Below are positions 8,046 to 35,171 of a DNA stretch of 64,000 bases, piece by piece. A program made the translations under genes and the position numbers. The notes under the pieces were generated by a model. It did no database searches. It was given only the letters and a program-made list of their open reading frames with translations, and was not told the DNA's origin. The first letter of the stretch is position 1, and each line of letters starts with the position of its first letter. The DNA is from Closterium sp. NIES-65 (lineage: Eukaryota; Streptophyta; Zygnematophyceae; Desmidiales; Closteriaceae), in NCBI GenBank assembly GCA_948144175.1, contig CANXME010002486.1, forward strand, positions 3,968,001-4,032,000, in the 5' to 3' direction.

Positions 8046-8089
8046 GCGCCCCGAGGCGCGCCAACTTTTTTTTTCTCTCGCTCGAGCGA

Positions 8090-9000: not shown

Positions 9001-9064
9001 TGCCCTGCCCTGTCTGGTGAACACTGAGCTTTACTCTACGCACTGCCCTCTCTCTACTGCTGTC

Positions 9065-15384: not shown

Positions 15385-15389
15385 CACAC

Positions 15390-16240: not shown

Positions 16241-16364
16241 TGTCAGATTTATATGACTTAGCTGCTGTAGGCTATAGTGGGGTAGCACATATGGGGTACA
16301 GCTTTCTAGGGTTTGTACTTGTACCCAACTTTCCCTTAGTCTTTTCATTCTCGTTCAATTTCAC
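16241..16364 (+). repeat. 3' LTR of copia element A
   Basis: 124 bp matching 2159-2283, preceded by TATGGGGGTG. Followed by target duplication GATTC and the right half of the split host repeat. Confidence 0.9.
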
Positions 16365-16369
16365 AGATT

Positions 16370-19207: not shown

Positions 19208-19274
<67 letters not shown>
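19208..19274 (+). repeat. (GA)n microsatellite
   Basis: About 67 bp of pure AG/GA, flanking the left truncated retroelement fragment. Confidence 0.95.
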
Positions 19275-19276
<2 letters not shown>

Positions 19277-19491
19277 CTTCGCCTCGGACCCTCCCAGTTC
19301 TCCACCGCGGCATCCTTTCGCCTGGGACTGCCCCTACCTGTGCCAAGACGCTGCAACTGCACGGCACACTCACCGGTCGAAAACCTCAAAGCATATATTT
19401 CTATCCGCCATCCCGACACCGACGCAGTGTGGATCTGTGACATCACAGTCACAGACCCCGTCTCCCACTAGGACGAGTACGCTCGCAAGGC

Positions 19492-19493
<2 letters not shown>
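19275..19493 (+). pseudogene. Truncated non-LTR retroelement fragment (endonuclease region)
   Basis: 219 bp that appear identical to 35170-35388. Translation gives part of the C-terminal restriction-like endonuclease region of the array family, including a C-x-C pair and DAVWICDITVTDP, followed by an in-frame TAG. The segment between the Cys pair and that motif is deleted relative to the full copies. It is bounded by GA tracts on both sides, and its right edge cuts the fragment short compared with the copy at 35170. Confidence 0.85.

Positions 19494-19556
<63 letters not shown>
19494..19556 (+). repeat. (GA)n microsatellite upstream of retroelement copy 1
   Basis: About 63 bp of AG/GA directly before the 5' end of the first full-length copy. 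Confidence 0.95.
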
Positions 19557-19558
<2 letters not shown>

Positions 19559-19626
19559 CACCTAGTGACTTAGCCTCTCAAGCCTCCCCAAGCCTCCCCT
19601 AGCCTCCCTAGCCTCCCTAGTCCTAG

Positions 19627-19632
19627 TATAAA
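19627..19632 (+). promoter_or_regulatory. TATA-like box of retroelement copy 1
   Basis: TATAAA within CTAGTATAAAGG, about 220 bp upstream of the first sense ATG. The equivalent positions in copies 2 and 3 are TATATA within CTAGTATATAGTGC. Confidence 0.45.
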
Positions 19633-19691
19633 GGCCTCAGCAGGCCTTGTGGCCTCTTCATTATTCAGTTTTTGGTTGGGTTTCTCTCCTA

Positions 19692-19757
19692 ACCGAGCGG
19701 CTCGCGCCGGCCGCCTTCGGCGGCCGACGCTCGACAGCGCGGCCTGCGGCCGCGCGC
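19692..19757 (+). ncRNA. Conserved double-hairpin RNA structure, copy 1
   Basis: Hairpin 1 is GGCCGCC-TTC-GGCGGCC (19709-19725). Hairpin 2 is GCGCGGCC-TGC-GGCCGCGC (19737-19755). GAGCG upstream and CGCTC between the hairpins can also pair around hairpin 1. In copies 2 and 3 the stems are the same and the second loop is TTC. The block is much better conserved than the flanking leader. It could be a ribozyme, a protein-binding site or a translation element. Confidence 0.6.
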
Positions 19758-19867
19758 TTGGGACGACAAGGCAACAACAAGCAACTATACGGACCACTGC
19801 ATACATCCATGGCAAGCCACACAAGTTCCTAGGCAAGACTAAGCAATGGAGCAGGAGGAGGCGGCAA

Positions 19868-21283
19868 CTACATGCGATCCGCCTCAAGGGGACCGAGAAT
19901 CCCTGTCAGGGACCTCCACAACTCCCGTACCACCAACGAGCTTGCGCCGATCGCGTCGGCTGCAGACCCTGCGCGCAAACATCGCCGCAGACCACGAACG
20001 GCAGCGTCGAGCTGGCCCACAGCCCCAACGGCTCCCCGCGCGGGCGCAGCCAACACGGGCACCAGGAGGAGGGAAAGCTGCTCCGCCGCGTCAAGGCAAT
20101 CCTCCCGTTGACCGTCAAGGAGGATACCCAGGGGAGCCCGCGTCAGAGACGCGTGCGCCTGCACCTGAATCAGCAGGAGGGCACGTAGGCTCTCAGAGAG
20201 CCGCCACACCTGGCCAAGCGTCGCCTCCGGCACGCGCACCTGTGGGGGAGGAGCCCCTAGGGCAGGAAAAGGAAAGTGAGCAGCGACGACAAGTGGAGCA
20301 GCATCAGACGAGTGAGTCGCCACCGCCCCTCCCGCCGCGGACTCAGCCTCCAGGCCCGCCACAGGAGGCACCCGCGGCAGCCGAAGGTGCGCCCCAGGTG
20401 CGGAGGTTGACGCAGCAGGAGCAGGAGGAGGAGGACGAGGAGGAGGAGCCACAGCAGGATGCACGGCCACAGGAGGTGCGGCAAGGGGAGCCACAGGCGC
20501 GGGCGCGATATGCCGCGAACTGCCCCAGCTGGCCTGCTCAGCCCTCCCCTCGCGCATTGCAGCCGAAACGACCCGCTGAACATCCGCAAGCGTCAGCGGT
20601 GGCTCATACGCCCCGCCACCACGACCGCGACCACCCCTCCAACCACCGCGACCTCCACGGTGGGCAGGCCAGTCCGCCTGCGAATGGCGACGCCGAGGAG
20701 AATCACGACGGCGTCGCGACGACTCCCGCTCATCCCGCGGCAATGGCGAGTGAGGTCGAGAGGGACGGCGATGTGGGGACGGATGACGCTGAGCCGGCCG
20801 GGCAGCAGGGGATGACGCAGGAGCCGACGGCGAAACGACATCCCCCGCCTGGTACAGGACGGCGCTGGTGGCTGGAGGCGGCTGGTAAGACGGGTCAGCA
20901 GCAGCAGCAGAAGGCGCCCCGGCGGGCGCAGCCCGTGGCGGCACGGAGGCCGCCACAGCAGCCGCATACGAAGACGCAGCAGCGGGCGCAGGAGGTTGGG
21001 CCAGGGCAGGCGCCGCGGCAGGCGCAGGAGCAGACGCGGCTGCCGGCACCGGTGCAGTCGCCGCAGCAGGCGCAGGAGCAGACGCCACACCGCGTGCTCC
21101 AAGGTGCGCAACTTCAGGAGCAGGAGCTGTCACCACAGCAGGCGCAGACACAGGATCAGGAGGGGGCGACATCCCCGCAGGCGCCGGAGCCGGTGCCGAT
21201 ACAGCGGGAGGGGCAACGACTGCTGACGCCACGGCAAAGGGCCTTGGCGAATACACGAGATAGTCCCCAAGCGCGACAGGCAT
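19868..21283 (-). CDS. Conserved antisense protein of retroelement copy 1, 471 residues
   Basis: Unrecognised family. Features in order are an Ala/Pro-rich N-terminal half, an SR segment (SRPHSPLPRDERESSRRRR) and an RGG segment (RGGRGGWRGGRGRGGG). These are followed by the motif YEPPLTLADVQRVVSAAMREG, a Pro/Ala spacer, and a C-terminal predicted-helical region with VPEATLGQVWRLSESL, CLDAAEQL and VVRELWRSLTGIL. Copies 2 and 3 encode homologues with the same order. Among copies most codon changes here are silent in this frame. SR and RGG tracts suggest RNA binding, so a gag/ORF1-like role is plausible but inferred. Confidence 0.75.
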   Translation of the reverse strand: MPVALGDYLVYSPRPFAVASAVVAPPAVSAPAPAPAGMSPPPDPVSAPAVVTAPAPEVAHLGARGVASAPAPAAATAPVPAAASAPAPAAAPALAQPPAPAAASSYAAAVAASVPPRAAPAGAPSAAAADPSYQPPPATSAVLYQAGDVVSPSAPASSPAARPAQRHPSPHRRPSRPHSPLPRDERESSRRRRDSPRRRHSQADWPAHRGGRGGWRGGRGRGGGAYEPPLTLADVQRVVSAAMREGRAEQASWGSSRHIAPAPVAPLAAPPVAVHPAVAPPPRPPPPAPAASTSAPGAHLRLPRVPPVAGLEAESAAGGAVATHSSDAAPLVVAAHFPFPALGAPPPQVRVPEATLGQVWRLSESLRALLLIQVQAHASLTRAPLGILLDGQREDCLDAAEQLSLLLVPVLAAPARGAVGAVGQLDAAVRGLRRCLRAGSAADAIGASSLVVRELWRSLTGILGPLEADRM

Positions 21284-21525
21284 CTCAGCGAGGCCGAGGC
21301 GCGGGGCAGCGGAACACGGGTGGACGAAACGGCGGACCGGAGAACGGGTTCCAACGAGCAGCGCGAAGGGCTTTAACTCGAGAAGCAGCTAATGAAGAGG
21401 AAGCTTGAGACGCTACTTATATTCCCACAGAGGTAGCTGAGTCCTCAGAGGAAGACGCAGCCGTAGAGGAATCGAGCCTGCCAGGGGAGAGAATCGCAAC
21501 ACCAAGCCAAACCGCATCGAGAAAT

Positions 21526-24500
21526 TTGGCCGGCCCCCGAAACCGAACCGCATCTGGACAAATTTCCCGCTCCCGAGCCGCGCCAAATTCTGCGCCAACA
21601 GGTCGGCACGCCCCTCCTGGCCGAACCCAACCCACCACCACCCAGCCAACGCTCCCAACACCGCTGGAGGAAAAATCGCCAGAGGCACTGGCTGCTGATA
21701 ACACGCTTTTCGCGGCCGTGGAAACTTGGGACTTGACGAAACTCTGCGACACTCGCAACGCACCCCTGCCACGCCACCTCCCACAGGACATCCGCCCAAT
21801 TTTTGCGACTGCGCTGCTAGCCCCTCTGCTCCGACTGGCTGACAACCCAGAATCACTGACAGCATGGACAGTTTTCCTGTTCCTCGCACGCCTGACGCTG
21901 AGACAACACACTCCTCAAAAACCGGATTGGCCAGCAGTCAGAGAAAGATTACGACAGTTCTTGGCGGGGGAGTGGAGCGCACTGTACTCTGACTTGCTCG
22001 ACTCTCTGACCAACCCTCAAGCGCCCAGGCATACCCCCGACGACCTGGGAGTGATTGCAAGGGCAGAAGGCCTTGCGCGACGTGGCAGCCTAAGGAGAGC
22101 GGTTCTTGCCCTGGAGGCGACGCCGGTGTGCACCCCGTCACCAGCAATCCTGGAAGCACTACGCGCCAAGCACCCACCTGCTCCTGAAGCGCCCCTCATT
22201 TGGCCGGTACCTGACCCCAACGCCCACTTGACAGCCACCCTGCCTGAGTTTCTCAGAGTTCTGTCACGCTGTGACAATGGGATTGGGGCGGGCCCATCAG
22301 GTCTGACATTCGAGCATGTGCGAGAGGCGTGTCTAGTCAACCAGTCAGTAGCGACAAACATCCACGCAATGGTCAACACCATTCTGACAGGGAAACTGCC
22401 ATCCCCAGTCGCCAGGCTCCTCACAGCGTCTCGCCTATTGGCTCTCTCCAAACCAGACGGAGGGACAAGGCCGATCGCTATTGGTGAAAGCATCACCAGA
22501 CTCGCCGCCAAAACAGCTCTGATGTTGACAGCAGGGGCGGCAAGAAAATTCTTCATGCCACACCAGTTCGGCGTGGCGGTGCCCGGGGGAGCGGAGGCGG
22601 TTATCCACATCACCCGCGCCTACCTATCTGAAAATCCTCACGCACTAGTCCTCCAGGCAGACCTAGCCAACGCCTTCAACAGTGTCAACAGAGCTGCAAT
22701 AGCATCCGCGCTAGACAACTCGGCTCTAGCACCACTACTACCACTAGTACAGCTCACCTACGGGGCCCCCTCACCGCTCTACCTGGACGAGGGCTTCAAG
22801 CATGAGCCCCTGCTAAGCACGACGGGAGTTCGGCAGGGAGACCCTCTTGGGCCACTGCTGTTTGCAGCTGCAATCAATCCCGCGCTACAAGCTACAGCCC
22901 AGGCCTTCCCTACTGTAGCCTGCCTAGCGTACGCAGACGACGTCACCTTCCTAGGGGAGCAATCTACCTGCGTTGCAGCGTTCCAGCACTTCACTGAGAG
23001 CCTCATGCCAATTGGCCTGCATCATAACCCATCTAAATGCGCGGCTTGGTCACAGTCAGGCATCCCCACCTCTGCCCTACCCCAGGGCGTCCCGTTCACT
23101 GGAAACGGCGTGAAGCTGCTAGGCAGTTTCATAGGCTCCGATGAGGCCACAGCAGACTTCATCCGTTCAAACCTTAGCTCCATGGCGGCACCTCTTGGCC
23201 TGATAGCACGGATGGAACCTCAGCTGGCTGCCCTGCTACTCGCCAGGTGTATCTCAAGACGAGTTTCTTACCTCATCCGGACCACACCCCTCATGCATAT
23301 GCCTCTGTATGAGTGGTCCGGTTGGGGCAGGCAGTTGTTTGAGACTCTGTTAACGGCATGTGGCATTAGTCATCCGCGGGGTGATGCTGAGATCTCTCGT
23401 ACATGGTCCCAAGCTTCGCTGCCAGTATCACTTGGGGGCCTCGGAATCACTGACCCCGCGGTCGAGGGCAGCTACAGCTACCTAGCTAGCTTTACCCAGG
23501 CACAGCAGCTGCTCTCAACCCTCGAAGATAGCCAGCTGGGGCCCCTGACAGGGACACGGGTGCAGATGATGGGACCGTATACAGACTCCTGCGCTCTCTA
23601 CCGCTGGCTAGCTCAGTGCGAGGCAGACCTACCGAGTGATGCCGGGGAGCTACTACAGAGTGACAGGGCTGCTCCCACGGGTGTGAAGCTGCAACAGGGG
23701 CTAGCTTTGGCAGTTCAGGGCAGAAGGTATGCTAACCAGGTGGAGAGCACAAGGGGCATGACCCCAAACCCCAATAGCGGCCATACGCAGCGCCTTCTCT
23801 CTTTGTCAGGGTACGGAGCCGGGGACTGGCTCCATGCAGTCCCGCTCATGCCCTCCCTGAGGCTCGACGGTCCCCAGTTTGCCACAGCCCTACAGTTCAG
23901 GCTAGGACTACCATTTTCAGCCCCCGGCGCTTGTGACTGCACCAAGCAGGTTCCCATCCCAGACAATCGGCTTCCAAACCATCTGCTACGCTGCGCCACA
24001 GGAGGGGGAAGGACAAATACTCACAACGAGCTGAGAGATGAGTGCATTAGGATGGCACAGTACGCCGGGTTCATGGTGCACAAGGAAACGTCGGAGTTCT
24101 GCCCGGTCACTAGGAAGACAGCGGACCTCGCCATTCGTGAACGGTCTTCAGGGGCAGTATGGATCGGGGACGTCACCATCACTGACCCCATCAGCACACG
24201 TGACCCCAATGCGGTGAAAGGGAGGGGGTGGGCTGCCAGGGAAGCCGCTGACAAAAAAATCTCAGACTACAGCAGCTCCCCGGCAGCCTACGTCTCATTC
24301 GTACCCCTCGCAGTCGAGACTTATGGCTGCCCATGCGCAGAGGTCCCCGCTTTCCTCAAGCTCTTGGCTCACACGGCTGCACGCAAGCTCTTCAACGCCG
24401 ACCCTTCAACCTACCAGGCGGCAAAACTACTCAACCAGTTCCGCCAGAGATGGTCGGTCGCCCTTCAGCGCGCGCAGGCCGTAAGCTACATGGCCAAGTG

Positions 24501-24606
24501 CAACATGGCAGCAGAGGCCCAGAACCCTCTTGTCGGGGCCCCTGGCGAGGAAATGTCCCTGGGGGACTGTTTTGTGGTGCTCGAACCTACTGCTGAGCCC
24601 CCTTAG
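21526..24606 (+). CDS. Reverse transcriptase / restriction-like endonuclease, copy 1
   Basis: 1026 residues from the first Met after an in-frame TGA at 21406; the same frame is also open upstream from 19846. RT motifs are RPIAIGESITRL, LQADLANAFNSVNR (about residue 376), GVRQGDPLGPLLFAA, the catalytic AYADD (about 468), HNPSKCAAW and GVKLLGSF. The C-terminus has CDC, NHLLRC and THNELRD (about 803-836). The nuclease block ADLAI and IGDVTITDP follows (about 875-885), fitting a CCHC finger plus PD-(D/E)XK fold. It would nick the target and copy element RNA. Homology to copies 2 and 3 extends upstream of 21526 to about 21226, so the true start may lie further left. Confidence 0.88.
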   Translation: MAGPRNRTASGQISRSRAAPNSAPTGRHAPPGRTQPTTTQPTLPTPLEEKSPEALAADNTLFAAVETWDLTKLCDTRNAPLPRHLPQDIRPIFATALLAPLLRLADNPESLTAWTVFLFLARLTLRQHTPQKPDWPAVRERLRQFLAGEWSALYSDLLDSLTNPQAPRHTPDDLGVIARAEGLARRGSLRRAVLALEATPVCTPSPAILEALRAKHPPAPEAPLIWPVPDPNAHLTATLPEFLRVLSRCDNGIGAGPSGLTFEHVREACLVNQSVATNIHAMVNTILTGKLPSPVARLLTASRLLALSKPDGGTRPIAIGESITRLAAKTALMLTAGAARKFFMPHQFGVAVPGGAEAVIHITRAYLSENPHALVLQADLANAFNSVNRAAIASALDNSALAPLLPLVQLTYGAPSPLYLDEGFKHEPLLSTTGVRQGDPLGPLLFAAAINPALQATAQAFPTVACLAYADDVTFLGEQSTCVAAFQHFTESLMPIGLHHNPSKCAAWSQSGIPTSALPQGVPFTGNGVKLLGSFIGSDEATADFIRSNLSSMAAPLGLIARMEPQLAALLLARCISRRVSYLIRTTPLMHMPLYEWSGWGRQLFETLLTACGISHPRGDAEISRTWSQASLPVSLGGLGITDPAVEGSYSYLASFTQAQQLLSTLEDSQLGPLTGTRVQMMGPYTDSCALYRWLAQCEADLPSDAGELLQSDRAAPTGVKLQQGLALAVQGRRYANQVESTRGMTPNPNSGHTQRLLSLSGYGAGDWLHAVPLMPSLRLDGPQFATALQFRLGLPFSAPGACDCTKQVPIPDNRLPNHLLRCATGGGRTNTHNELRDECIRMAQYAGFMVHKETSEFCPVTRKTADLAIRERSSGAVWIGDVTITDPISTRDPNAVKGRGWAAREAADKKISDYSSSPAAYVSFVPLAVETYGCPCAEVPAFLKLLAHTAARKLFNADPSTYQAAKLLNQFRQRWSVALQRAQAVSYMAKCNMAAEAQNPLVGAPGEEMSLGDCFVVLEPTAEPP

Positions 24607-24764
24607 GAGCTCCCAGTGGAGGGGGGGTGGCTGGTGGGTAGGGTTGTAGGTTGATCTTCGGATCTGGGTTGCTGCTAGGTTGTTCTTTTAGTCTCTAGTG
24701 TTGCCTGTTTCTATTCTGCCTCGATCGTTTGTACTCACCCGTTATATCAATACAAGGACCGCTT
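24607..24764 (+). other. 3' untranslated region of retroelement copy 1
   Basis: Short tail ending ATATCAATACAAGGACCGCTT and then GA. The A-TATCAATA-x(3-4)-GGACC end is shared by all copies and is the likely RT start signal. Confidence 0.6.
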
Positions 24765-24787
24765 GAGAGAGAGAGAGAGAGAGAGAG
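24765..24787 (+). repeat. (GA)n between copies 1 and 2
   Basis: 23 bp of GA. It is both the 3' flank of copy 1 and the 5' flank of copy 2. Confidence 0.95.
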
Positions 24788-24832
24788 GCCCTAGGAGCTA
24801 GTCCTTAGCCTCTCCAGCACTATTCAGCCTAG

Positions 24833-24838
24833 TATATA
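24833..24838 (+). promoter_or_regulatory. TATA-like box of retroelement copy 2
   Basis: TATATA within CCTAGTATATAGTGCTCC, 45 bp from the 5' boundary of the element. Confidence 0.4.
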
Positions 24839-24897
24839 GTGCTCCTCTGCAGCTAGTTCTCTTCATTGTTCGGTTTTCTTCTCAGTTGTTTCTCCTA

Positions 24898-24963
24898 ACC
24901 GAGCGGCTCGCGCCGGCCGCCTTCGGCGGCCGACGCTCGACAGCGCGGCCTTCGGCCGCGCGT
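24898..24963 (+). ncRNA. Conserved double-hairpin RNA structure, copy 2
   Basis: Hairpin 1 is at 24915-24931 and hairpin 2 at 24943-24961, both with TTC loops. The paired arms are identical to those of copies 1 and 3. Confidence 0.6.
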
Positions 24964-25077
24964 GAGGGAACGACAAGCACACAACACACAGAGTTACTAA
25001 CAAGAGGCATACAAACATGTCAAGCCGTACAGCGGCCTAGCCGCGCAAACCACTAATGGCAGAGCCGGAGCCCGCGC

Positions 25078-26514
25078 CTACAAGCGGTGAGCTCCAAGGG
25101 CATGGAGAATGCCCGTCAGGGAGCGCCACAGCTCCCGGACCACAATTGTGCTTGCGCCGATCGCCGCGGCTCCAGATCCAGCGCGCAAGTGCCGCTTCAA
25201 GCTCCGAACAGCCTCACCAAGCTGTCCCGCGGCAGCAGCGCCTCCCTCTGCGGGCGCAGCCAGCACGGGCGCCAGCAGCTCCGCGAGCTGGTCAGCCGCG
25301 TCGAGGCATGGGTCACGCAGGTGGCTGCGAAAGGACTCGGGCGGGACAGCAGGGAGAGACGAGTGCGCAAGCACTTGAATCAGAAGCAAAGCATGCAGGC
25401 TCTCCGCGAGACGGTGAAGCTGACCAAGCGTGGTCTCAGGAACGCGCGTCTGCGGAGGCAGCAGAGCCGCCGCCAGGAACCGGAGAGACGCATCAGCAGC
25501 GTTCGGAGCCGCATCCGCGCCACTACCCGCCGCCACGAACTCTACCCCCGCGACAGGCGGAACAGGTGGCAGATGAAGGCGGGAGCCAGTCGCCGGCGTC
25601 GCAACAGAAGGATAAGGAACGGACGGGGCAGGGACATGAGGAAGAGGAGCAACAGCCGGCGGAGGGGCTACATGATGCACAGGCGAACGAGGAGCAACGG
25701 GCTCTGGAGCAGCCGGCCGCGAATTGCTCTGGCCCGGCGCTGCCCTCCCTTGACGTACGGCACGCGACACCTCCCGAGACACCTCGCGCTGGAGGTCCGC
25801 CAGCGTCACTGGCGGCCGATACGACCCGCCTCCACCGCGCCCCGTGGGGCCCCGCCATCCCCGACTGCCACCCGAGTGCGTTGGCCACTGGGCCTGCTGC
25901 TGGTAGCGCCGGGGGGAGTTCCGCCGGCGCCGAGACGTCTCGCGCTCCTGCGGTGGCGCGGGAGAATGGGGCCGGGACAAGCGGCGGTCAGGCGACGGGG
26001 GACGAGACGGCGGAACAACCGGAGCCGCAGGCGGTGGAACGGGAGGAGACTGATCCGCGCTCGGAAGAGCAACCACCGAGGGCGGGCCGCCAGTGGTGGC
26101 GGACACCGCAGGCGACGAAGAAGCAGACGCCAGCATCGGCACGCCGGGGACAGCACCGGCAGGTGCAGCTGGAACGCCAGGCCCTGGGACAGGATGAGCG
26201 GCGACCCCCCCGGCAGGAGCAGATGCCGCCAGCGGCACGGCAGGAACAGGGAGAACAGGCGGAGAGGGGGCGACAGGCGGAGCGGGAGGAGCAACCATCG
26301 GCTTAGACGGCTCAACCCCGTTCACGACGAGAGGACGTGCGGATACGAGGGGAGGAGTCTTTTCAGCGGCTACTAGGCCGGGCGGCAGAACAGACAGTGG
26401 CGGGGAACCCGTCGCCTCGGTCCTCGCTCCTGAGGCAGACGACGGCCTTTCGAGTACAACCGACGCGGCGCCAACGCGCATTGGCGAATAATCAGTCACA
26501 CCAGCAATCACCAT
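25078..26514 (-). CDS. Conserved antisense protein of retroelement copy 2, 478 residues
   Basis: Starts MVIAG, as copy 3 does from an internal Met. It has the same layout as copy 1: Pro/Ala/Val-rich N-terminus, RPPSPDRRLSRPHSPAP, SRRRRNSPRR, GGSRGWRGPTGRGGGGSY, PPVTLADLQREV, HLPPVPPVAGVEFVA, then VPETTLGQLHRLAESLHALL, CLDAADQLAELLAPVLAAP and VVRELWRSLTGIL. In the block 25360-25450 against copy 3, about 16 of 20 changed codons are synonymous in this frame. The protein is unrecognised; nucleic-acid binding is suggested by the SR and RGG parts. It ends 22 bp inside the sense ATG, as in the other copies. Confidence 0.78.
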   Translation of the reverse strand: MVIAGVTDYSPMRVGAASVVLERPSSASGARTEATGSPPLSVLPPGLVAAEKTPPLVSARPLVVNGVEPSKPMVAPPAPPVAPSPPVLPVPAVPLAASAPAGGVAAHPVPGPGVPAAPAGAVPGVPMLASASSSPAVSATTGGPPSVVALPSADQSPPVPPPAAPVVPPSRPPSPDRRLSRPHSPAPPQERETSRRRRNSPRRYQQQAQWPTHSGGSRGWRGPTGRGGGGSYRPPVTLADLQREVSREVSRAVRQGRAAPGQSNSRPAAPEPVAPRSPVHHVAPPPAVAPLPHVPAPSVPYPSVATPATGSRLHLPPVPPVAGVEFVAAGSGADAAPNAADASLRFLAAALLPPQTRVPETTLGQLHRLAESLHALLLIQVLAHSSLPAVPPESFRSHLRDPCLDAADQLAELLAPVLAAPAEGGAAAAGQLGEAVRSLKRHLRAGSGAAAIGASTIVVRELWRSLTGILHALGAHRL

Positions 26515-29500
26515 CGCGAGGACAGGAAGCGCGAGGCGATGGGCGGGCAGCAGGTAGCGGTCGAGGAGGTGGGCCAGAAAATGGCTATCAGAGGGAGGCC
26601 AGAAGGGCTTTAACTAGGCTACTTAATGACGAAGAAGAAAATGACCCCTCTTATAGAGAAGAGCCAACCCCATCCAGTACGGAGGAAGGGTCAGAAGCAG
26701 AGGAAGGGGCAGAGGAGAATGGGAGAAGGACAGGAGCGAGAACAAGGCGGTCCCGAGGAGAGGGAACGACCACCGCGGCTGGACCGTCCGATGGCAATCG
26801 TACGGGCGAAATTCCAACCGCACCATCACAAGCAAGGCCGGGCCGCACCGGGAGAAATCGGGCCGCGACGGCAGGGGCATCGGTGCGAGACAATCCCAAT
26901 CCCCCGCGCTATTTTACGCCAGAGGAGTTGGCGACGCGAGCAGATCTGTTCGCTGGCGTCGAGAACTGGGATATCCCAGCCCTCTGCGATAGTCGACAAC
27001 CATCCCTGGCAAGGCGGTTACCGCCCAATTTGTGCCAGTTGTTTTCGCTGGCGCTGCTAACCCCGTTACTCAACCTGTCACGAAACCCGGAAGGAGAGGC
27101 AGGTTGGCACCTACTCCTATTTCTGCCACGTCTGACGCTTCGCCAGACCTCGCCACGGAAACCAAACTGGCCCCAGATCAAGGCCCGGCTCCGAGCCTTC
27201 CAACGTGGCGAGTGGGGTCAACTGTACCAGGATGCGATCGAAGCAGTCAACACTCCAACGCCTCCACGTCACATGCCCGACGCAACCGGGGTCATCAGCA
27301 GGGCCGAGGGCCTGGCGAAACGGGGTAGCCTACGACGCGCTGTGCTGGCGTTGGAGTCAACGCCAGTCTGCACCCCAACTCCGGAAATTCTGGAGGAGCT
27401 TCGACAGAAACACCCGCCAGCCGAAGCAGGGGAGACGACGTGGCCACCCTCGCCTGAGTCAAAATTGTTCATCACCCAGGCTGACTTCGCCAAACTGTTG
27501 GGAAGGTGTGAAAATGGGGTCGGTGCTGGGCCATCGGGAACGACATTCGAACACATGCGCGACGCGGCAATCACGAATAGACGAGTTAGCACCCATCTGC
27601 ACGCCTTGGTTAACACCATTTTGGGGGGCAACCTTCCAGCACCGGTGTCGGACCTACTGACAGCTTCACGGCTCATTGCCCTGGCCAAACCCGGTGGGGG
27701 GGCTCGACCAATCGCCATTGGCGAATGCATCACGCGGCTGACTGCCAAAGCAGCCCTCGCAGCCATGGGAGAGGCCGCGCGGGCCTTTTTCCTACCTCTA
27801 CAGTATGGCGTAGCCGTGCCTGGAGGAGCCGAGGCAGTCACCCACGTGGCACGGGCGTATCTGGACAAGCTTCCCAACAGCCTCGTGCTGCAAACCGACA
27901 TCTCAAATGCATTCAACAGTATTTCACGGCAAGCCATCGCGACAGCGTTACAAGGACCAGAATTGTCGCCACTACTGCCGCTGGTGAAACTGACATACGG
28001 TAACGCGTCGAAATTATTCGTCGACGCGAATTTTGGATCGGACCCACTGATCCGCGAACGGGGCGTGCGCCAAGGGGACCCACTTGGCCCACTACTGTTT
28101 GCGGCAGGTATGCACACTACACTCCGCGACACTGCTGCAGCACACCCCCAGGTGCTGTGTCTGGCATACGCCGACGACGTCACATTCCTGGGGGAGGCGA
28201 CGGCTACTGTAGCAGCCTTCAACCATTTCACCGAGCAGCTGGCACACCTGGGGTTACGGCATAATGCGCAGAAATGCGCAGCTTGGAGCACACAAGCAGC
28301 AGTAAAGGATCTGCTGCCGCACGACGTACCATTCTCCCAGGATGGTGTTCGCTTGCTCGGAAGCTTTGTGGGGCCTGACAGTGGGGCGTCACAGTTCCTG
28401 TCGGGTCAGCTGCAGGAGATGGCCAAACCCCTGCCACTGCTCGAGAAAGCCGACCCGCAGGTAGCCTCGTTATTACTCACCCGCTGCATTTCGAGGCGTG
28501 TGGCATACCTTACCTCAACAACACCGCTCTCCCTTTTGCCGCGAGAGACCTGGAGCCAGTGGGGGACAGACCTGCTAGCGGCCCTACTCACAGCATGCCA
28601 CCTTCGCGTCCCCACCTGCCGTACCGAGCAAGCACGTGTCTGGGCGCAGGCGTCCCTGCCGCCGTCTTTGGGAGGGATAGGCATTACTGACCCGCTGGTC
28701 GAGGGTGTTTTCGGGTTCGCAGCGAGCTTCACGCAGGCGGCGCTTTTCATCGCATCACTAGACGGCGCTCCTGAGGGCGCGCTGGCGCAGGCGCGGGACC
28801 ACATGCAGTTGCCTGCTGACACCACCACACCCCTTCACACGTGGCTGTCGGAGTGTGAAGCATCGTTACCCGACGATGCGCGAGAAGTCCTGGAGAAAGA
28901 ACGGCTGGAGCGAACTGATGTGAGGCTCCAGCACGCATTGGCGCTAAGGGTGCATGGGAGTAGATATGCGGCGCAGGTGCAGGCGACGAGGGAGATGGCG
29001 GTGAACCCCTTATGCGGACATACGCAGCGGATGTACTCAATGACGGGGTACGGGACTGGGGATTGGCTGACCGCTATCCCGATTGCGGCCAACAGGAGGA
29101 TAGGGCCCACTCACTTTTCCAATGCCGTACGTTTCCGGCTGGCCCTCCCCTTCTCCACGCCGAAGATTTGCGACTGTGCGGACCACACAGAGATCACAGA
29201 CCCCCGCCTCCCGAATCACCTTCTCCGCTGCGGCACAGGCAAGCATCGCATCAACACCCACAACGAGCTGCGCGATGCCTGTGTCAGCATGGCCCAGGAC
29301 GCGGGTTTCATCGTTCACAGAGAATCCTCAGCGCACTGCCCCGTTGAGGAACAGACGGCAGATTTTACAATGACGGACAGAAGCAGTGGGGCCGTCTATG
29401 TATGTGATGTCACCATCACCGACCCCATCAGCACAAGGGACCCGGAGGCACAGAAGGGCAGGGGCTGGGCGGCCCGGGAGCAAGCGGACAAGAAAATCCA

Positions 29501-29837
29501 GCACTATGCCTCCCTACCAGAGACGGTGACCTTCCTCCCCCTGGCTGTGGACACCTATGGCTGCCCGTGTGCGGAGGTCCCAGCCTTTTTGAAGCTCTTA
29601 GCGGACACTGCAGCTCGGCGACACTTCAACGCCGACTCTAAATCGTTCTATGCTGCAAAGTTCCTGCACCAGTTCAGGCAGCGCTGGTCTGTGGCCCTGC
29701 AAAGGGCCCAATCTGTAGGCCTCCTGCTAAAGCTTGGGGAGGCGGCGGCGGTTGAGAACCCGCCGGTGGGAGGAATTGGGGATGAGTTGCATCTAGGGGA
29801 CTGCTTTGCAGTGATTGAGCCCCTCGTAGAGCTGTAG
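26337..29837 (+). CDS. Reverse transcriptase / restriction-like endonuclease, copy 2
   Basis: 1166 residues from the first Met after the TAG at 26304. The same frame is open from 25056 upstream, with only that stop. N-terminal blocks shared with the other copies are RQRALA and GGPENGYQREARRAL. RT motifs: RPIAIGECITRL, LQTDISNAFNSISR (about residue 519), GVRQGDPLGPLLFAAG, AYADD (about 610), HNAQKCAAW. Nuclease region: CDC (about 945), NHLLRC, THNELRD, ADFTM, VCDVTITDP, then GWAAREQADKK. All catalytic residues appear present, so this domain looks intact. Confidence 0.88.
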   Translation: MRIRGEESFQRLLGRAAEQTVAGNPSPRSSLLRQTTAFRVQPTRRQRALANNQSHQQSPSRGQEARGDGRAAGSGRGGGPENGYQREARRALTRLLNDEEENDPSYREEPTPSSTEEGSEAEEGAEENGRRTGARTRRSRGEGTTTAAGPSDGNRTGEIPTAPSQARPGRTGRNRAATAGASVRDNPNPPRYFTPEELATRADLFAGVENWDIPALCDSRQPSLARRLPPNLCQLFSLALLTPLLNLSRNPEGEAGWHLLLFLPRLTLRQTSPRKPNWPQIKARLRAFQRGEWGQLYQDAIEAVNTPTPPRHMPDATGVISRAEGLAKRGSLRRAVLALESTPVCTPTPEILEELRQKHPPAEAGETTWPPSPESKLFITQADFAKLLGRCENGVGAGPSGTTFEHMRDAAITNRRVSTHLHALVNTILGGNLPAPVSDLLTASRLIALAKPGGGARPIAIGECITRLTAKAALAAMGEAARAFFLPLQYGVAVPGGAEAVTHVARAYLDKLPNSLVLQTDISNAFNSISRQAIATALQGPELSPLLPLVKLTYGNASKLFVDANFGSDPLIRERGVRQGDPLGPLLFAAGMHTTLRDTAAAHPQVLCLAYADDVTFLGEATATVAAFNHFTEQLAHLGLRHNAQKCAAWSTQAAVKDLLPHDVPFSQDGVRLLGSFVGPDSGASQFLSGQLQEMAKPLPLLEKADPQVASLLLTRCISRRVAYLTSTTPLSLLPRETWSQWGTDLLAALLTACHLRVPTCRTEQARVWAQASLPPSLGGIGITDPLVEGVFGFAASFTQAALFIASLDGAPEGALAQARDHMQLPADTTTPLHTWLSECEASLPDDAREVLEKERLERTDVRLQHALALRVHGSRYAAQVQATREMAVNPLCGHTQRMYSMTGYGTGDWLTAIPIAANRRIGPTHFSNAVRFRLALPFSTPKICDCADHTEITDPRLPNHLLRCGTGKHRINTHNELRDACVSMAQDAGFIVHRESSAHCPVEEQTADFTMTDRSSGAVYVCDVTITDPISTRDPEAQKGRGWAAREQADKKIQHYASLPETVTFLPLAVDTYGCPCAEVPAFLKLLADTAARRHFNADSKSFYAAKFLHQFRQRWSVALQRAQSVGLLLKLGEAAAVENPPVGGIGDELHLGDCFAVIEPLVEL

Positions 29838-29927
29838 ATTGGCGAGGTTTGCAACCGGCATGCTTGTTATCTAGGCCACTATAACTTGCCTGCCTGTACT
29901 TGACTGCTATATCAATAAAAGGACCAT

Positions 29928-29928
<1 letters not shown>
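29838..29928 (+). other. 3' untranslated region of retroelement copy 2
   Basis: Only about 90 bp, ending ATATCAATAAAAGGACCATT before GA. Confidence 0.6.

Positions 29929-29984
<56 letters not shown>
29929..29984 (+). repeat. (GA)n between copies 2 and 3
   Basis: About 56 bp of pure AG/GA. Confidence 0.95.
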
Positions 29985-29985
<1 letters not shown>

Positions 29986-30029
29986 CCCTAGGAGCTAGCC
30001 CTTAGCCTCTCCAGCACTCTTCAGCCTAG

Positions 30030-30035
30030 TATATA
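30030..30035 (+). promoter_or_regulatory. TATA-like box of retroelement copy 3
   Basis: TATATA, same context as copy 2, 45 bp from the element's 5' boundary. Confidence 0.4.
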
Positions 30036-30093
30036 GTGCTCCTCTGCAGCTAGTTCTCTTCATTGTTCGGTTTTCTTCTCAGTTGTTTCTCCT

Positions 30094-30160
30094 AACCGAG
30101 CGGCTCGCGCCGGCCGCCTTCGGCGGCCGACGCTCGACAGCGCGGCCTTCGGCCGCGCGT
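30094..30160 (+). ncRNA. Conserved double-hairpin RNA structure, copy 3
   Basis: Hairpins at 30112-30128 and 30140-30158, identical to copy 2. Confidence 0.6.
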
Positions 30161-30252
30161 GGGGGAACGACAAGCACACAACACACAGAGTTACTAACAA
30201 GAGGCATACAAGGATGGCAAGCCCTACAGCGGCCTAGCCGCGCAAACCACTA

Positions 30253-33200
30253 ATGGCAGAGCCGGAGTCCGCGCCTACATGCGGTGAGCTCCAAGGGCGT
30301 GAAGAACGCCCGTCAGGGAGCGCCACAGCTCCCGGACCACAAGCGTGCTTGCGCCGATCGCAGCGGCTCCAGACCCAGCACGCAAATGGCGCCGCAAGCC
30401 GCGCACAGCCTCATCAAGCGGCCCCGCCGCCGCAACGCCTCCCTCGGCGGGCGCAGCCAGCACGGGCGCCAGCAGCCCTGCAAGCTGATCGGCGGCGTCC
30501 AGACAAGAGTCGCGGTGACGATCCAGGAACAACTCAGGGGGGGTCGCGGGGAGGGACGAGTGAGCAAGAACCTGTATCAAGAGCAGAGCGTGAAAGCTCT
30601 CTGCGAGACGGAAGAGCTGGCCGAGGGTCGCCTCCGGAACCCGGGCCTGAGGGGGTTGCAGCGCCTGCGCAAGGAACTGGAACGGCTCCACTACGGCAGG
30701 AGAAGCCGGGCCAACTGCCGTCACCGCTCCGCCTCCCACAGCCACAAATTCTACTCCCGCCACGGGCGGGACTGGCGGCAGATGCAACCGCGACCCTGGA
30801 ACGGGAGCAGTCGCAGCAGCAGCGGGAAGCGATGAGGCCGGAACACGGGAGTGGACGAGTGCAGCAGGGGGCGGAACCTCATGAGGCGCCGCTTGACGCT
30901 GGGCGGCATGGGCGACGGCAACGTGCGAGCTGCCTTGTGTCTGAGCAGCCCTCTCTTCACGCATCGCGGTCGTTACCGCACGTTGCAGATCCGCCATCCT
31001 CACGGGCGGATCATACGACCCTCCCCCATTGCGACCACGAGAACCCCACCAGCCGCCGCGACCGCCACGGCGAGCTTGCCACTGACCCGATTGCTGATTG
31101 CGCCGGGGAGAATTCCGCCGGCGCCGGGAGGACGCCCGATCCTGTTGGGGCGCTGGAGAATGAGGGCGAGATAGGCGACGGTCCGGCGAGGGAGGACGTG
31201 ACTGCGACGTTGGTTGCGTCGGCTGAGCCACGGGAGGCGCAACGGGAGCAGACGGGTCCAATGCAGGGGACACAATCAATTGCGTCGGGCCGCCAGTGGT
31301 GGCGGACGTCGGCTGCGGGGACGAGGCAGGCACAGAAGTCTGCGGCTTGGGGCCCGAAGCGGGGGGCCCAACGGGTGCAGGAGCCGGGAGCGCGGCGGCA
31401 GACCCTGACGGGCCATCGGGCGAAGCCTGGGGAGCAGTTGGCGTGGACGGAGCGGATTTCCCAGCAGCAGCAAGAGCCACAGACTGAGCGGCAGCTGCGG
31501 CAAGGGGAGCCTCGGGTTCGGGGTGAGGAGGCTTTTCAGCGGATGTTGTCGAGGGCTTCGGAGCCGGAGCCACCGGGGGCTTCTTCGCCGTGGTCGCCTT
31601 TCCGGCCTCAGACTGAGGCTTGGCGACCACTGCCGACCAGGCGGCAGCGCGCTCTGGCGACGGCTCGGGAGCTCCAGCAATCACCATCACGAGGTAGTGC
31701 AGCACGGGAAGAAAGGAGGCAGACGGTTAGCGGAACTGGCGGAGGGCCTGAGAATGGGTTTCAGGCTGCGGGACATCGGGCTTTAATTGCTTTGGTAGCG
31801 GCTAATACAGAAGGGGACAGAAATGACCCCTCTTATACTACGGGAGTGGAGCCAGACAGCGAAAACGAGGAAGAAAGAGACGGAGCGGAGGCAACGAGAG
31901 TAGGGACAGGGAGGAGAAGACCTGAGACAGCCAATTTACCCACAGTGGGAACAGAAAGGCGTGCAGGGCCATTGGATGCCGATCGGACGGATGAGAATCC
32001 AACTCGGCAGCAGTCAACGCCACCGAGTCGCGCACGCAGACATCGAAACGCTTCCCTCCACCCAGTGTCAGGATTGGCCCCGCAGCGCCCGCGCTATTTT
32101 TCGCCAGTGGAGCTAGCGGAGATGGGGGATAAATTCGCCGACATAGCGAACTGGGACATCTCCGCCCTCTGCGATAGTCGCCAACCGCTGCTGTCAAGAC
32201 GATTACCGCCTAACCTGTGCCAGTTATTCTCGCTGACACTCCTGACCCCGCTACTTCACCTTTCGCGAAACCCTGACTCCGAAGCGGGTTGGACGCTGCT
32301 TCTCTTCCTCCCACGTCTGACCCTTCGCCAGGCTTCGCCAAAGCACCCAAATTGGCCACAAATCAAGGCCCGTCTTCGGGCATTCCAGCGAGGCGAGTGG
32401 TCACAGCTCTACCAGGAGGCGATAAACGCGGTCAACGCCCCTCCGCCCCCACGTCACCAACCCGATGTGACAGGTGTCCTGAGCAGAGCCGAGGGGTTGG
32501 CGAAACGTGGCAGTCTGCGTCGAGCCGTGTTGACGCTCGAGTCAACACCCGTCTGTACACCGAGCCCAGAAATTCTAGACGAGCTGCGACAAAAACATCC
32601 ACCGGCGGGAGACGACCAGCTGACCTGGCAGTCAGCCGATGCTAAGCCCCTGTGCATTTCCCACGCAGAATTTGCGAAGCTCCTTGGGAGATGCGAGAAT
32701 GGTGTTGGTGCCGGACCGTCTGGCACAACATTTGAGCACCTGCGCGACGCGGCAATAACCAATGCATCCGTCAGCACCCATCTGCACGCCCTCGTGAATA
32801 CAATTCTGGGGGGCAACCTCCCAGCTTCGGTTGCGGACCTGCTTACTGCGTCCAGACTCATCGCCCTGGCCAAACCTGGGGGGGGGGTCCGACCAATCGC
32901 TATCGGAGAATGCCTGACTCGGCTGGCTGCCAAAGCTGCGCTGTTGGTCATGGGGGAGGCTGCACGTGACTTCTTCCTACCCCTACAGTTCGGAGTGGCG
33001 GTGCCTGGTGGGGCGGAAGCGATAATTCACGCCGCCCGAACGTACGTGGACTGCCACCCAAACAGCCTGGTACTACAGACCGACATTGCGAATGCTTTCA
33101 ACAGCATTTCGCGACAATCCATCGCAGCGGCATTACAGGAGCCAACTCTATCGCCACTACTCCCACTGGTTCGACTGACCTACGGTAACCCGTCGCGACT

Positions 33201-35022
33201 CTACATGGACTCGACCTTTGCGAGCGGACCCCTACGCAGCGAACGTGGCGTTCGCCAGGGCGACCCACTTGGCCCGCTCCTGTTTGCGGCGGGAATACAC
33301 CCTACACTTCGTGACACTGCAGCAGCTCACCCAGGGGTGCTTTGCTTGGCCTATGCTGACGACGTGACATTCGTGGGTGCACGAAGTGCCACTGTAGCCG
33401 CGTTCAACCACTTCACCTCCAAACTGGAATCACTAGGCCTGAAGCACAACCCGCAGAAATGCACGGCATGGAGCGCCACTGCGTGCGACTCTGCTGGGTT
33501 ACCTCCAGGGGTGCCGTTCTGCACAGACGGCATCCGCTTGCTTGGGAGCTTTCTGGGGGCGGCCAACGGCGCAGCTTCTTTCTTAGCGGGCCAGCTGAAG
33601 GACCTGGCGAAACCCTTACACCTCATTGAGCGGGCAGATCCTCAGGTGGCCTCGCTGCTGATCACACGCTGCATCTCTCGGCGCGTGTCCTATCTAACTC
33701 GAACAACTCCTCTCAACCTCGTTTCACGAGACACTTGGACGGAGTGGGGTCGTGACCTCCTCCTGGCACTCCTTACCTCGTGCAGCATTCATGTGCCGGC
33801 GGGTAGAGCGGAACAGGCACGCGTCTGGGCGCAGGCCTCCTTGCCCCCCTCTCTAGGGGGAATAGGTGTTACTGACCCCCTTGTTGAGGGAGTGTACGGT
33901 TTCGTCGCAAGCTTCACACAGGCGGCTCTGCTTTTCTCTACGCTCGCGCTAGATCCGGACACCGCCCTCTCCCACGCGCGCTGCCATATGCTACGGCCCA
34001 CGGATGAAAACACACCGCTTCGCTCCTGGCTCACAGAGTGCGAGTCCGCCCTGCCTTCGGATGCGCGAGAGCTACTGGAACGGGAACGACTTAAGCGGAC
34101 AGATGTCAAACTACAGCACGCCCTTGCCCTACAGGTTCACGGTAGCCGCTACGCCGTGCAAGTACAGGCAACGAAGGACATGGAACTGAATCCGCTAGCA
34201 GGCCATACGCAGCGGATGTTCTCCCTAACCGGCTATGGCACAGGGGACTGGCTGACAGCCATCCCTATAGAAGCAACCAGACGCCTAGGCCCGGTACACT
34301 TCGCAAATGCCGTCAGATTCAGGCTCGGGCTGCCCTTCTCCACCCCGAAAAACTGTGATTGCTCTGATCACACCGAAATCCTAGACCCCCGCCTCCCGAA
34401 TCACCTCCTACGCTGCGGCACTGGAAGGCAGCGCATCAACACCCACAACGAGCTCCGAGATGCCTGCATTAGTATGGCACAGGATGCGGGGTTTATCGTC
34501 CACAGGGAGTCGGCTGCCCACTGCCCTGTCGAGGAACAAACAGCCGACTTCACCATGTCGGATAGGAGCAGTGGGGCGGTCTGGGTGTGCGACGTGACCG
34601 TGACAGACCCCATCAGTACCAGGGACCCACAGGCACGGAAAGGGAGGGGATGGGCAGCTAGGGAACAGGCAGATAAGAAAACCCAGCACTATGCAAACAG
34701 GCCTGAGACAGTCGGCTTCTTTCCACTGGCAGTGGAGACCTACGGTTGCCCATGTGCAGAGGTCCCCGTCTTCCTCAAACTGCTGGCAGACACCGCGGCT
34801 CGGCGCCACTTCAACGCCGACTCTAACTCCTATCATGCCGCCAAGTTTCTGCATCAGTTCAGGCAGCGGTGGTCGGTTGCCCTTCAGAGGGCGCAGTCAG
34901 TGGGCTTGCTTATGAAACTGGGTGAGGCTGCAGCAGCTGAGAACCCTCCGGTAGGGGGTATTGGGCATGAGCTACACCTAGGGGACTGCTTTGCTGTTTT
35001 GGAGCCACTGGTGGAACTCTAG
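30253..35022 (+). CDS. Reverse transcriptase / restriction-like endonuclease, copy 3, 1589 residues
   Basis: One uninterrupted frame from MAEPESAPT. The first 480 residues overlap the antisense gene and are low-complexity and poorly conserved between copies, so they may not be functional protein. From RQRALA onwards the protein is conserved. RT: RPIAIGECLTRL, LQTDIANAFNSISR (about 941), GVRQGDPLGPLLFAAG, AYADD (about 1034), HNPQKCTAW. Nuclease: CDC (about 1370), NHLLRC, THNELRD (about 1398), ADFTM, VCDVTVTDP (about 1446), GWAAREQADKK, QFRQRWSVALQRAQ. It would act in target-primed reverse transcription at GA sites. The initiating Met is uncertain. Confidence 0.9.
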   Translation: MAEPESAPTCGELQGREERPSGSATAPGPQACLRRSQRLQTQHANGAASRAQPHQAAPPPQRLPRRAQPARAPAALQADRRRPDKSRGDDPGTTQGGSRGGTSEQEPVSRAERESSLRDGRAGRGSPPEPGPEGVAAPAQGTGTAPLRQEKPGQLPSPLRLPQPQILLPPRAGLAADATATLEREQSQQQREAMRPEHGSGRVQQGAEPHEAPLDAGRHGRRQRASCLVSEQPSLHASRSLPHVADPPSSRADHTTLPHCDHENPTSRRDRHGELATDPIADCAGENSAGAGRTPDPVGALENEGEIGDGPAREDVTATLVASAEPREAQREQTGPMQGTQSIASGRQWWRTSAAGTRQAQKSAAWGPKRGAQRVQEPGARRQTLTGHRAKPGEQLAWTERISQQQQEPQTERQLRQGEPRVRGEEAFQRMLSRASEPEPPGASSPWSPFRPQTEAWRPLPTRRQRALATARELQQSPSRGSAAREERRQTVSGTGGGPENGFQAAGHRALIALVAANTEGDRNDPSYTTGVEPDSENEEERDGAEATRVGTGRRRPETANLPTVGTERRAGPLDADRTDENPTRQQSTPPSRARRHRNASLHPVSGLAPQRPRYFSPVELAEMGDKFADIANWDISALCDSRQPLLSRRLPPNLCQLFSLTLLTPLLHLSRNPDSEAGWTLLLFLPRLTLRQASPKHPNWPQIKARLRAFQRGEWSQLYQEAINAVNAPPPPRHQPDVTGVLSRAEGLAKRGSLRRAVLTLESTPVCTPSPEILDELRQKHPPAGDDQLTWQSADAKPLCISHAEFAKLLGRCENGVGAGPSGTTFEHLRDAAITNASVSTHLHALVNTILGGNLPASVADLLTASRLIALAKPGGGVRPIAIGECLTRLAAKAALLVMGEAARDFFLPLQFGVAVPGGAEAIIHAARTYVDCHPNSLVLQTDIANAFNSISRQSIAAALQEPTLSPLLPLVRLTYGNPSRLYMDSTFASGPLRSERGVRQGDPLGPLLFAAGIHPTLRDTAAAHPGVLCLAYADDVTFVGARSATVAAFNHFTSKLESLGLKHNPQKCTAWSATACDSAGLPPGVPFCTDGIRLLGSFLGAANGAASFLAGQLKDLAKPLHLIERADPQVASLLITRCISRRVSYLTRTTPLNLVSRDTWTEWGRDLLLALLTSCSIHVPAGRAEQARVWAQASLPPSLGGIGVTDPLVEGVYGFVASFTQAALLFSTLALDPDTALSHARCHMLRPTDENTPLRSWLTECESALPSDARELLERERLKRTDVKLQHALALQVHGSRYAVQVQATKDMELNPLAGHTQRMFSLTGYGTGDWLTAIPIEATRRLGPVHFANAVRFRLGLPFSTPKNCDCSDHTEILDPRLPNHLLRCGTGRQRINTHNELRDACISMAQDAGFIVHRESAAHCPVEEQTADFTMSDRSSGAVWVCDVTVTDPISTRDPQARKGRGWAAREQADKKTQHYANRPETVGFFPLAVETYGCPCAEVPVFLKLLADTAARRHFNADSNSYHAAKFLHQFRQRWSVALQRAQSVGLLMKLGEAAAAENPPVGGIGHELHLGDCFAVLEPLVEL
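30275..31705 (-). CDS. Conserved antisense protein of retroelement copy 3, 476 residues
   Basis: Starts MLHYLV; MVIAG at residue 7 matches the start of copy 2 and may be the true start. It has the same block order as copies 1 and 2, including RPPSPDRRLSRPHSPAP, SRRRRNSPRR, RGGRGGWWGSRG, PPVRMADLQRAV, HLPPVPPVAGVEFVA, ATLGQLFRLAESFHALL, CLDAADQLAGLLAPVLAAP and VVRELWRSLTGVL. Against copy 1, six of seven changed codons in the last block are silent in this frame, while nine of the overlapping sense codons change residue. No known family recognised. Confidence 0.78.
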   Translation of the reverse strand: MLHYLVMVIAGAPEPSPERAAAWSAVVAKPQSEAGKATTAKKPPVAPAPKPSTTSAEKPPHPEPEAPLAAAAAQSVALAAAGKSAPSTPTAPQASPDGPSGSAAALPAPAPVGPPASGPKPQTSVPASSPQPTSATTGGPTQLIVSPALDPSAPVAPPVAQPTQPTSQSRPPSPDRRLSRPHSPAPQQDRASSRRRRNSPRRNQQSGQWQARRGGRGGWWGSRGRNGGGSYDPPVRMADLQRAVTTAMREERAAQTQGSSHVAVAHAAQRQAAPHEVPPPAALVHSRVPASSLPAAAATAPVPGSRLHLPPVPPVAGVEFVAVGGGAVTAVGPASPAVVEPFQFLAQALQPPQARVPEATLGQLFRLAESFHALLLIQVLAHSSLPATPPELFLDRHRDSCLDAADQLAGLLAPVLAAPAEGGVAAAGPLDEAVRGLRRHLRAGSGAAAIGASTLVVRELWRSLTGVLHALGAHRM

Positions 35023-35097
35023 AGGGATTAGTCTGAATCTCACATGCTCGTGGAACTATATGTCTGTACCTTTTTGCCATATCAATATACGGACCAT
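35023..35097 (+). other. 3' untranslated region of retroelement copy 3
   Basis: About 75 bp, ending ATATCAATATACGGACCATT before GA. Confidence 0.6.

Positions 35098-35169
<72 letters not shown>
35098..35169 (+). repeat. (GA)n after copy 3
   Basis: About 70 bp of AG/GA. Confidence 0.95.

Positions 35170-35171
<2 letters not shown>

Follow-up and report, generated by a model that had tools for sequence, protein, structure and literature searches.

The long sense open reading frames (ORFs) of R2, R4, NeSL/Utopia and HERO elements combine a reverse transcriptase (RT) with C-terminal CCHC/endonuclease-like motifs, and the endonuclease-type lineage of retrotransposons without long terminal repeats (non-LTR) is usually regarded as single-ORF. 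Here we describe an element that appears to share this layout, its putative C-terminal motifs being judged by eye, in a 64,000-nucleotide stretch of Closterium sp. NIES-65 (contig CANXME010002486.1, positions 3,968,001 to 4,032,000; hereafter the window), where three head-to-tail copies of one non-LTR retrotransposon, with (AG)n tracts between them, occupy positions 19494-35169. Unlike the R2-group elements, each copy has on its antisense strand an ORF for a putative protein of about 470 amino acids (aa) that overlaps the sense N-terminus. We conclude that an AG-inserting non-LTR retrotransposon of this Closterium-like alga very probably has a single 1.4-kb stretch that holds two protein genes, one per strand.

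Primate L1 likewise has an antisense-strand protein of a non-LTR element, ORF0, which is short and lies within the 5' untranslated region (UTR); the Closterium antisense ORF differs in that it is 470-480 aa long, runs through sense codons and has its stop 22 nt inside the sense ORF. The L1 5' UTR holds an antisense promoter (PMC7746726). Antisense genes are also found in plant retroelement families, namely Grande gene23, RIRE2 and Retand TRP28; that of Grande has its own promoter, and the plant ORFs lie between pol and the 3' LTR (PMC7264820, PMC11963269). Their hosts are LTR elements that encode gag, integrase and RNase H. The element described here is, in contrast, a non-LTR element in which Pfam recognizes RVT_1 only, and its antisense ORF lies across the 5' portion of the sense ORF. 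It also resembles the retroelements that carry HTLV HBZ and similar antisense protein genes (PMC11963269, PMC10186651), which belong to another element class and are transcribed from a 3' LTR promoter. Simple repeats are also the insertion sites of the (TG)n-specific Togen families (PMC4640811), and the word "antisense" is absent from the main text of that paper as far as it was available. Among the listed titles and abstract openings of open-licence literature on retrotransposons of Closterium, non-LTR elements with antisense ORFs, ambisense retroelements, elements with specific targets, and antisense overlaps, no 1.4-kb sense-antisense coding overlap in a non-LTR element was found; within this literature, the ambisense gene layout would be the new part of an otherwise ordinary endonuclease-type retrotransposon.

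Two open frames on opposite strands

The ORFs of the three copies are as follows.

19868..21283, minus strand: antisense ORF of copy 1, 471 codons, ATG at 21283, TAG at 19868
25078..26514, minus strand: antisense ORF of copy 2, 478 codons, ATG at 26514
30275..31687, minus strand: antisense ORF of copy 3, 470 codons, ATG at 31687
19846..24606, plus strand: sense ORF of copy 1, one in-frame stop at 21406
25056..29837, plus strand: sense ORF of copy 2, one in-frame stop at 26304
30253..35022, plus strand: sense ORF of copy 3, no internal stop, 1589 aa from its ATG

The antisense ORF spans the first 1.4 kb of the sense ORF, and its ends are constant relative to the sense ATG in all three copies, the sense ATGs (19846, 25056 and 30253) each lying 22 nt before the antisense stop. 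A sequence-only reading of the window had claimed an open antisense frame with the same ends in three copies; this holds, apart from its third start, 31705, which is a GTG, the ATG aligned with that of copy 2 being 31687. Among 50 genomic copies (described below), the distance from sense ATG to antisense stop is 22 nt in 44 and 31 nt in 4, and the ATG was not found in 2. The sense ORF is laid out as a weakly constrained N-terminus, a linker, the RT and an endonuclease-like C-terminus. Both open frames and their fixed geometry can be read directly from the DNA. A sense RNA would yield one protein of ~1590 aa, consisting of an N-terminal extension, the conserved linker, the RT and the endonuclease-like C-terminus, and a promoter within the sense linker would yield an antisense mRNA and from it the 470-480 aa protein; we infer that the antisense gene is transcribed and translated and that the sense frame is translated across the overlap.

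Unequal constraint in the overlap

Long antisense overlaps in which both frames code are hard to demonstrate; for this element, selection can be read in each frame separately, with dozens of genomic copies, albeit related ones, acting as replicates. Through the frame relation of the two ORFs, the antisense wobble position is the second position of the sense codon. In the three pairs of window copies, differences at sense codon positions 1/2/3 in the overlap number 155/252/179 (461 codons), 155/243/158 (450 codons) and 122/217/128 (468 codons; chi-square over the three positions, p = 1.4e-10, 1.1e-10 and 1.5e-12), as compared to 407/277/720 (1096 codons), 407/293/720 (1096 codons) and 223/169/615 (1103 codons) in the rest of the sense ORF. 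The peak of differences thus lies at the sense second position inside the overlap and at the third outside it, with the switch near the antisense ATG, and position 2 is the highest in the overlap in all three pairs, as expected from the earlier claim that differences fall mainly at antisense wobble positions. The two blocks that had been offered as examples are less exact: in the VVRELWRSLTG block, copy 1 against copy 3, six of seven changed codons are indeed antisense-silent, but sense residue changes number 6 of 12 rather than nine, and in 25360-25450, copy 2 against copy 3, 15 of 19 changed codons are antisense-silent, where about 16 of 20 had been counted. Both blocks are above average, antisense-silent changed codons over the whole ORF amounting to 122/351, 134/351 and 135/317. 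The ratio of nonsynonymous to synonymous substitution (dN/dS, by NG86) in the antisense frame is 0.33, 0.32 and 0.31 in the three pairs; over the last 160 columns alone it is 0.27, 0.24 and 0.16. The corresponding ratio of differences (pN/pS) in the sense frame is 1.19-1.31 in the antisense-aligned columns and 1.00-1.12 in the sense alignment, and the unused frames of the antisense strand, at 1.18-1.41, are near the sense values.

The genomic copies were obtained by searching the 874-Mb assembly with the copy-3 antisense protein, 90 matches being scored of 129,900 first-look candidates. The genomic set comprises 60 loci (L009-L068) covering 50 places, one of which is window copy 3; with repeated places removed and the three window copies added, there are 52 copies, 50 of them distinct in sequence, and 579 of the 1225 pairs among these 50 have an antisense pS of at least 0.15 and were scored, although the pairs are not independent. 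RT sequence is found on the opposite strand at all 60 loci (50 places), at some of them (L052, L060) as the later RT part only. Of the 52 copies, 40 have no antisense stop, 10 have one, 1 has two and 1 has three. Median dN/dS in three divergence classes of the scored pairs is 0.41, 0.33 and 0.31 in the antisense frame, 1.07, 1.07 and 1.24 in the sense frame, and 1.29, 1.45 and 1.58 in a control frame; the antisense value is below 0.7 in 579 of 579 pairs and the sense value in none. The comparison of frames over genomic copies (0.31-0.41 in antisense, 1.07-1.24 in sense), by which the earlier proposal of a selected antisense protein was to be judged, comes out in favor of that proposal. On the internal branches of a tree of the 50 copies, antisense-synonymous changes number 557 against 332.8 expected and antisense-nonsynonymous changes 544 against 745.6, with 3 antisense stop-creating changes against 25.7 expected and 10 sense stop-creating changes against 33.9 (16.3 and 30.1, respectively, under a position-matched expectation). 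On terminal branches, the counts are 785 against 539.4 for antisense-synonymous and 987 against 1208.3 for antisense-nonsynonymous changes, with 21 antisense stops against 45.4 and 45 sense stops against 69.0. This asymmetry between the frames is present in the sequences themselves, and purifying selection on the antisense residues is supported; the opposing sense frame would mainly be kept free of stops.

One could instead envision an antisense frame that is open and conserved merely as a by-product of a selected sense N-terminus, in keeping with a nearly stop-free sense frame and with a protein search in which parts of the sense N-terminus matched two predicted proteins. Such an origin is contradicted by sense dN/dS medians above 1 that never fall below 0.7 in pairs where the antisense value always does, by the concentration of changes at sense second positions and by the depletion of antisense stop-creating changes on internal branches, and we give it almost no credence. 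As to chance, synonymous shuffling that preserves the sense protein predicts 4.2, 3.7 and 6.9 stops in the antisense frames of the window copies, where none is seen (P 0.007, 0.015 and 0.0006). As a full explanation, the antisense frame as a shadow of the sense frame is refuted by the codon-position pattern and by dN/dS.

The sequence-only reading had taken the reverse view, that the long sense N-terminus is the shadow of the antisense gene. For the sense residues this agrees with their dN/dS, but the sense frame itself is nearly stop-free, the 50 distinct copies having a mean of 0.82 sense stops against 10.2 expected (the copies are related and do not constitute 50 independent tests). When synonymous antisense codons are shuffled, 6.7, 11.6 and 10.2 sense stops are expected in window copies 1-3, and 0, 1 and 0 are seen (P 0.0003, 0/3000 and 0/3000); TAG occurs once against 18.0 expected, and TAA (6.2 expected) and TGA (4.2 expected) do not occur. 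In none of the copies is a comparable depletion seen in the three further frames that shuffling alters (lowest P 0.07), a fourth being unaffected by it. The same shuffle applied to the RT gives 47, 37 and 37 stops seen against 51.2, 37.8 and 40.9 expected and thus no overall depletion, with one of six 470-codon blocks at P 0.015 and TA at codon junctions mildly low (24, 20 and 28 against 37.5, 29.2 and 33.3). Composition or TA avoidance was rejected as the cause of the open sense frame on the basis of this control. We conclude, to a degree that depends on the null, that the sense frame appears to be selected for openness and not for residues; on this evidence the overlap is dual-coding with unequal constraint, the antisense frame being constrained by its residues and the sense frame by the scarcity of stops.

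Several results weigh against this conclusion. A null that fixes codon-junction dinucleotides weakens the depletion of sense stops (P 0.03, 0.045 and 0.2); it absorbs part of the signal, and the per-copy strength therefore depends on the null. CCG, AAG and CCA are also low among the sense codons, copies 1 and 2 each have their one in-frame sense stop, and if antisense-silent changes alone are counted, sense stops number 3 against 6.9 on internal and 11 against 12.5 on terminal branches. In the cleanest site classes the contrast between frames is smaller (internal/terminal omega 0.59/0.65 in antisense and 0.90/0.96 in sense), and regional omega scatters on small counts, from 0.31 to 1.10 in antisense and from 0.70 to 1.93 in sense. 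Lastly, the loci were chosen via the antisense protein and belong mostly to one subfamily, so antisense stops are under-counted among them, the window copies being unaffected. The strictest null, the antisense-silent counts and the single sense stops, as well as nearly unconstrained sense residues and a Met in copy 3 at 145 codons past the overlap, would also suit an explanation in which the antisense gene is real and the sense overlap is open by composition and chance, the RT being produced from an internal, non-AUG or spliced start. We consider this improbable, because sense stops are so rare over the 50 copies while the RT lacks such depletion, because the sense GGPENG linker adjoining the antisense start is conserved, and because, past the overlap, copies 1, 2 and 3 reach their next in-frame Met only after 362, 253 and 145 codons, farther on than the conserved linker. 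With the next Met so distant, translation from the sense ATG through the overlap would be the simplest route to a protein that contains both the linker and the RT.

A candidate antisense promoter and the predicted antisense product

Upstream of each antisense ATG, within the sense linker, lies a TATAAG motif.

21416..21421, minus strand: TATAAG of copy 1, 138 nt before the antisense ATG, candidate TATA box
26650..26655, minus strand: TATAAG of copy 2, 141 nt before the antisense ATG, candidate TATA box
31832..31837, minus strand: TATAAG of copy 3, 150 nt before the antisense ATG, candidate TATA box

In 48 of 50 copies the motif precedes the antisense ATG by 138-159 nt (exactly 150 nt in 43), and it is followed after about 28-31 nt (spacing by eye) by an initiator-like CATTA or TATTA, or by CATTGG or CATTCG in a few copies. 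In this region the sense residues GGPENG(Y/F)Q are conserved and their third bases vary. Among 11 subfamily representatives, 41 sense codons have a residue common to at least 8, and at 12 of these positions the codon itself is invariant. Three blocks account for five of the 12: TATAAG (TCT 9/9, TAT 11/11), ATT (AAT 9/9) and TTAAAGC (GCT 11/11, TTA 11/11). These blocks look like the TATA box, start site and downstream element of a putative antisense promoter. The other seven tell against this assignment, since they lie outside the blocks, five at or inside the antisense start and two (AGC 10/10, GAT 9/9) elsewhere. Because frozen codons occur outside the blocks as well, we have given more weight than otherwise to the alternative that the blocks serve the sense strand, either as a signal (splicing, RNA structure) or by encoding conserved sense protein, and their positions within the sense ORF do coincide with conserved residues (D-P-S-Y and A-L). 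We nevertheless regard that alternative as unlikely: third bases are frozen in the blocks yet variable in the adjacent conserved GGPENG codons, and the order and spacing of the blocks are those of a minus-strand TATA box and initiator, at a distance from the antisense ATG that is kept in nearly all copies.

The putative product of the antisense ORF is predicted to be largely disordered. Its N-terminal half is A/P-rich and modeled with low confidence, approximately residues 164-225 are RS- and RGG-rich and conserved, and a helix (231-252) and a C-terminal four-helix bundle (352-464) are predicted; when the C-terminal piece was folded alone, most of the bundle block reached a predicted local distance difference test score (pLDDT) of 86-96. 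The predicted bundle matches generic four-helix bundles only, and 19 of 64 members of the protein show a weak match to MIC19 (best E 0.0027). The antisense profile finds 234 proteins, a count that is not comparable to that for the sense N-terminus (the sense search used a single sequence with matches limited to 0.55-1.75 x 1589 aa, the antisense search a three-sequence profile). Among the 120 matches listed, all are from Closterium (Naga37s-1, NIES-53 and NIES-54) and are up to 91% identical to copy 2; public Closterium predictions carry the protein many times as "unnamed protein product."

Our best guess is that the antisense protein partners the element RNA in the manner of ORF1p or Gag, binding nucleic acid and associating with itself; the RS/RGG region would bind RNA and the C-terminal helix bundle would mediate assembly. 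On the other side, the protein matches no family in Pfam or NCBIfam and no PDB sequence (best E 0.12) that could link it to a known ORF1p, RRM or capsid domain or otherwise support a function. Alternatively, the product could be a regulator, such as a repressor, silencing suppressor or transcription factor, as is thought of the antisense ORFs of plant LTR elements and retroviruses (PMC7264820, PMC11963269), and an antisense RNA across the sense start could itself damp sense expression. The size, the conservation and the RS/RGG region beside a helix bundle are just as compatible with an assembly protein that binds nucleic acid and are not decisive, and we hold the regulator to be a serious possibility at somewhat less than even chances. 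For the fuller proposal of an ambisense element, in which an antisense gene with its own promoter would supply ORF1p/Gag and the sense N-terminal third would be a by-product where only stops are forbidden, we judge the chances to be evenly balanced.

The retrotransposon, its array and its leader

The remaining features of the array are as follows.

19494..19556, plus strand: (AG)n tract at the 5' end of copy 1
29929..29984, plus strand: (AG)n tract between copies 2 and 3
35099..35169, plus strand: (AG)n tract at the 3' end of copy 3
32869..33474, plus strand: RT domain RVT_1 of copy 3 (E 7.4e-19), converted from residues 878-1079
24788..25055, plus strand: conserved 5' leader of copy 2, with TATATAG, two GC-rich hairpins and a 7-codon upstream ORF (uORF)

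RVT_1 is found in all three sense ORFs (E 2e-18, 3.6e-19 and 7.4e-19) and is the only Pfam domain of the element at E <= 0.01. By sequence, the closest solved relatives of the sense protein are R2 proteins (E 1.9e-9; six solved sequences matched), followed by group II intron-like RTs (6e-7), and the RT is, on these matches, of the non-LTR kind and R2-like. The C-terminus contains, by eye, CDC...HLLRC and then TAD, which may be a CCHC/PD-(D/E)XK endonuclease-like motif; the R2 alignment over this part scored -2.2 bits. Where the flank suffices, 37 of 39 genomic copies begin after an AG tract and 16 of 21 end in one, and from these tracts the element appears to insert target-specifically into the (AG)n microsatellite.

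The three-copy array is flanked by an identical direct repeat of 286 bp (19208-19493 and 35103-35388), a long feature resembling a target-site duplication, which combines an AG tract with a piece of RT C-terminus belonging to a fourth, older element (35169-35747) that is 34-37% identical to the three copies. The AG tract and 5' leader of copies 2 and 3 (24765-25064 and 29962-30261) are 98% identical and their RT ORFs ~73% identical as protein, which may reflect recent conversion or strong constraint on the leader. A separate repeat family occupies 2000-16500 and 60200-64000, with blocks ~80-85% identical and internal repeats.

The leader carries a TATA-like motif at 24833-24839 in copy 2 (TATATAG), 19627-19633 in copy 1 and 30030-30036 in copy 3, about 45-70 nt inside the element, which alone could not yield an RNA reaching the conserved 5' end. 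Two GC-rich hairpins (24890-24970 in copy 2) are nearly invariant across the three copies; both are capped by UUCG in copies 2 and 3, the second cap being UGCG in copy 1. The folding z of the leader is -2.58, and the hairpins match none of the Rfam families at gathering score. The uORF lies at 25017-25040 in copy 2 and starts at 19809 in copy 1 and 30214 in copy 3 (MSSRTAA*, MASHTSS* and MASPTAA*). Its start is 37-39 nt upstream of the sense ATG in 38 of the 40 copies with sufficient flank, a position that suggests translational control of the sense ORF.

Regardless of the function of its product, the antisense ORF is a gene that would be overlooked by ORF calling on the sense strand alone. 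If our reading is correct, the element would be an ambisense non-LTR retrotransposon, with a second protein in a lineage known for one ORF and with a long segment of its sense protein determined by the other strand, and the antisense protein would provide ORF1p/Gag, a function otherwise missing from endonuclease-type elements with a single ORF.

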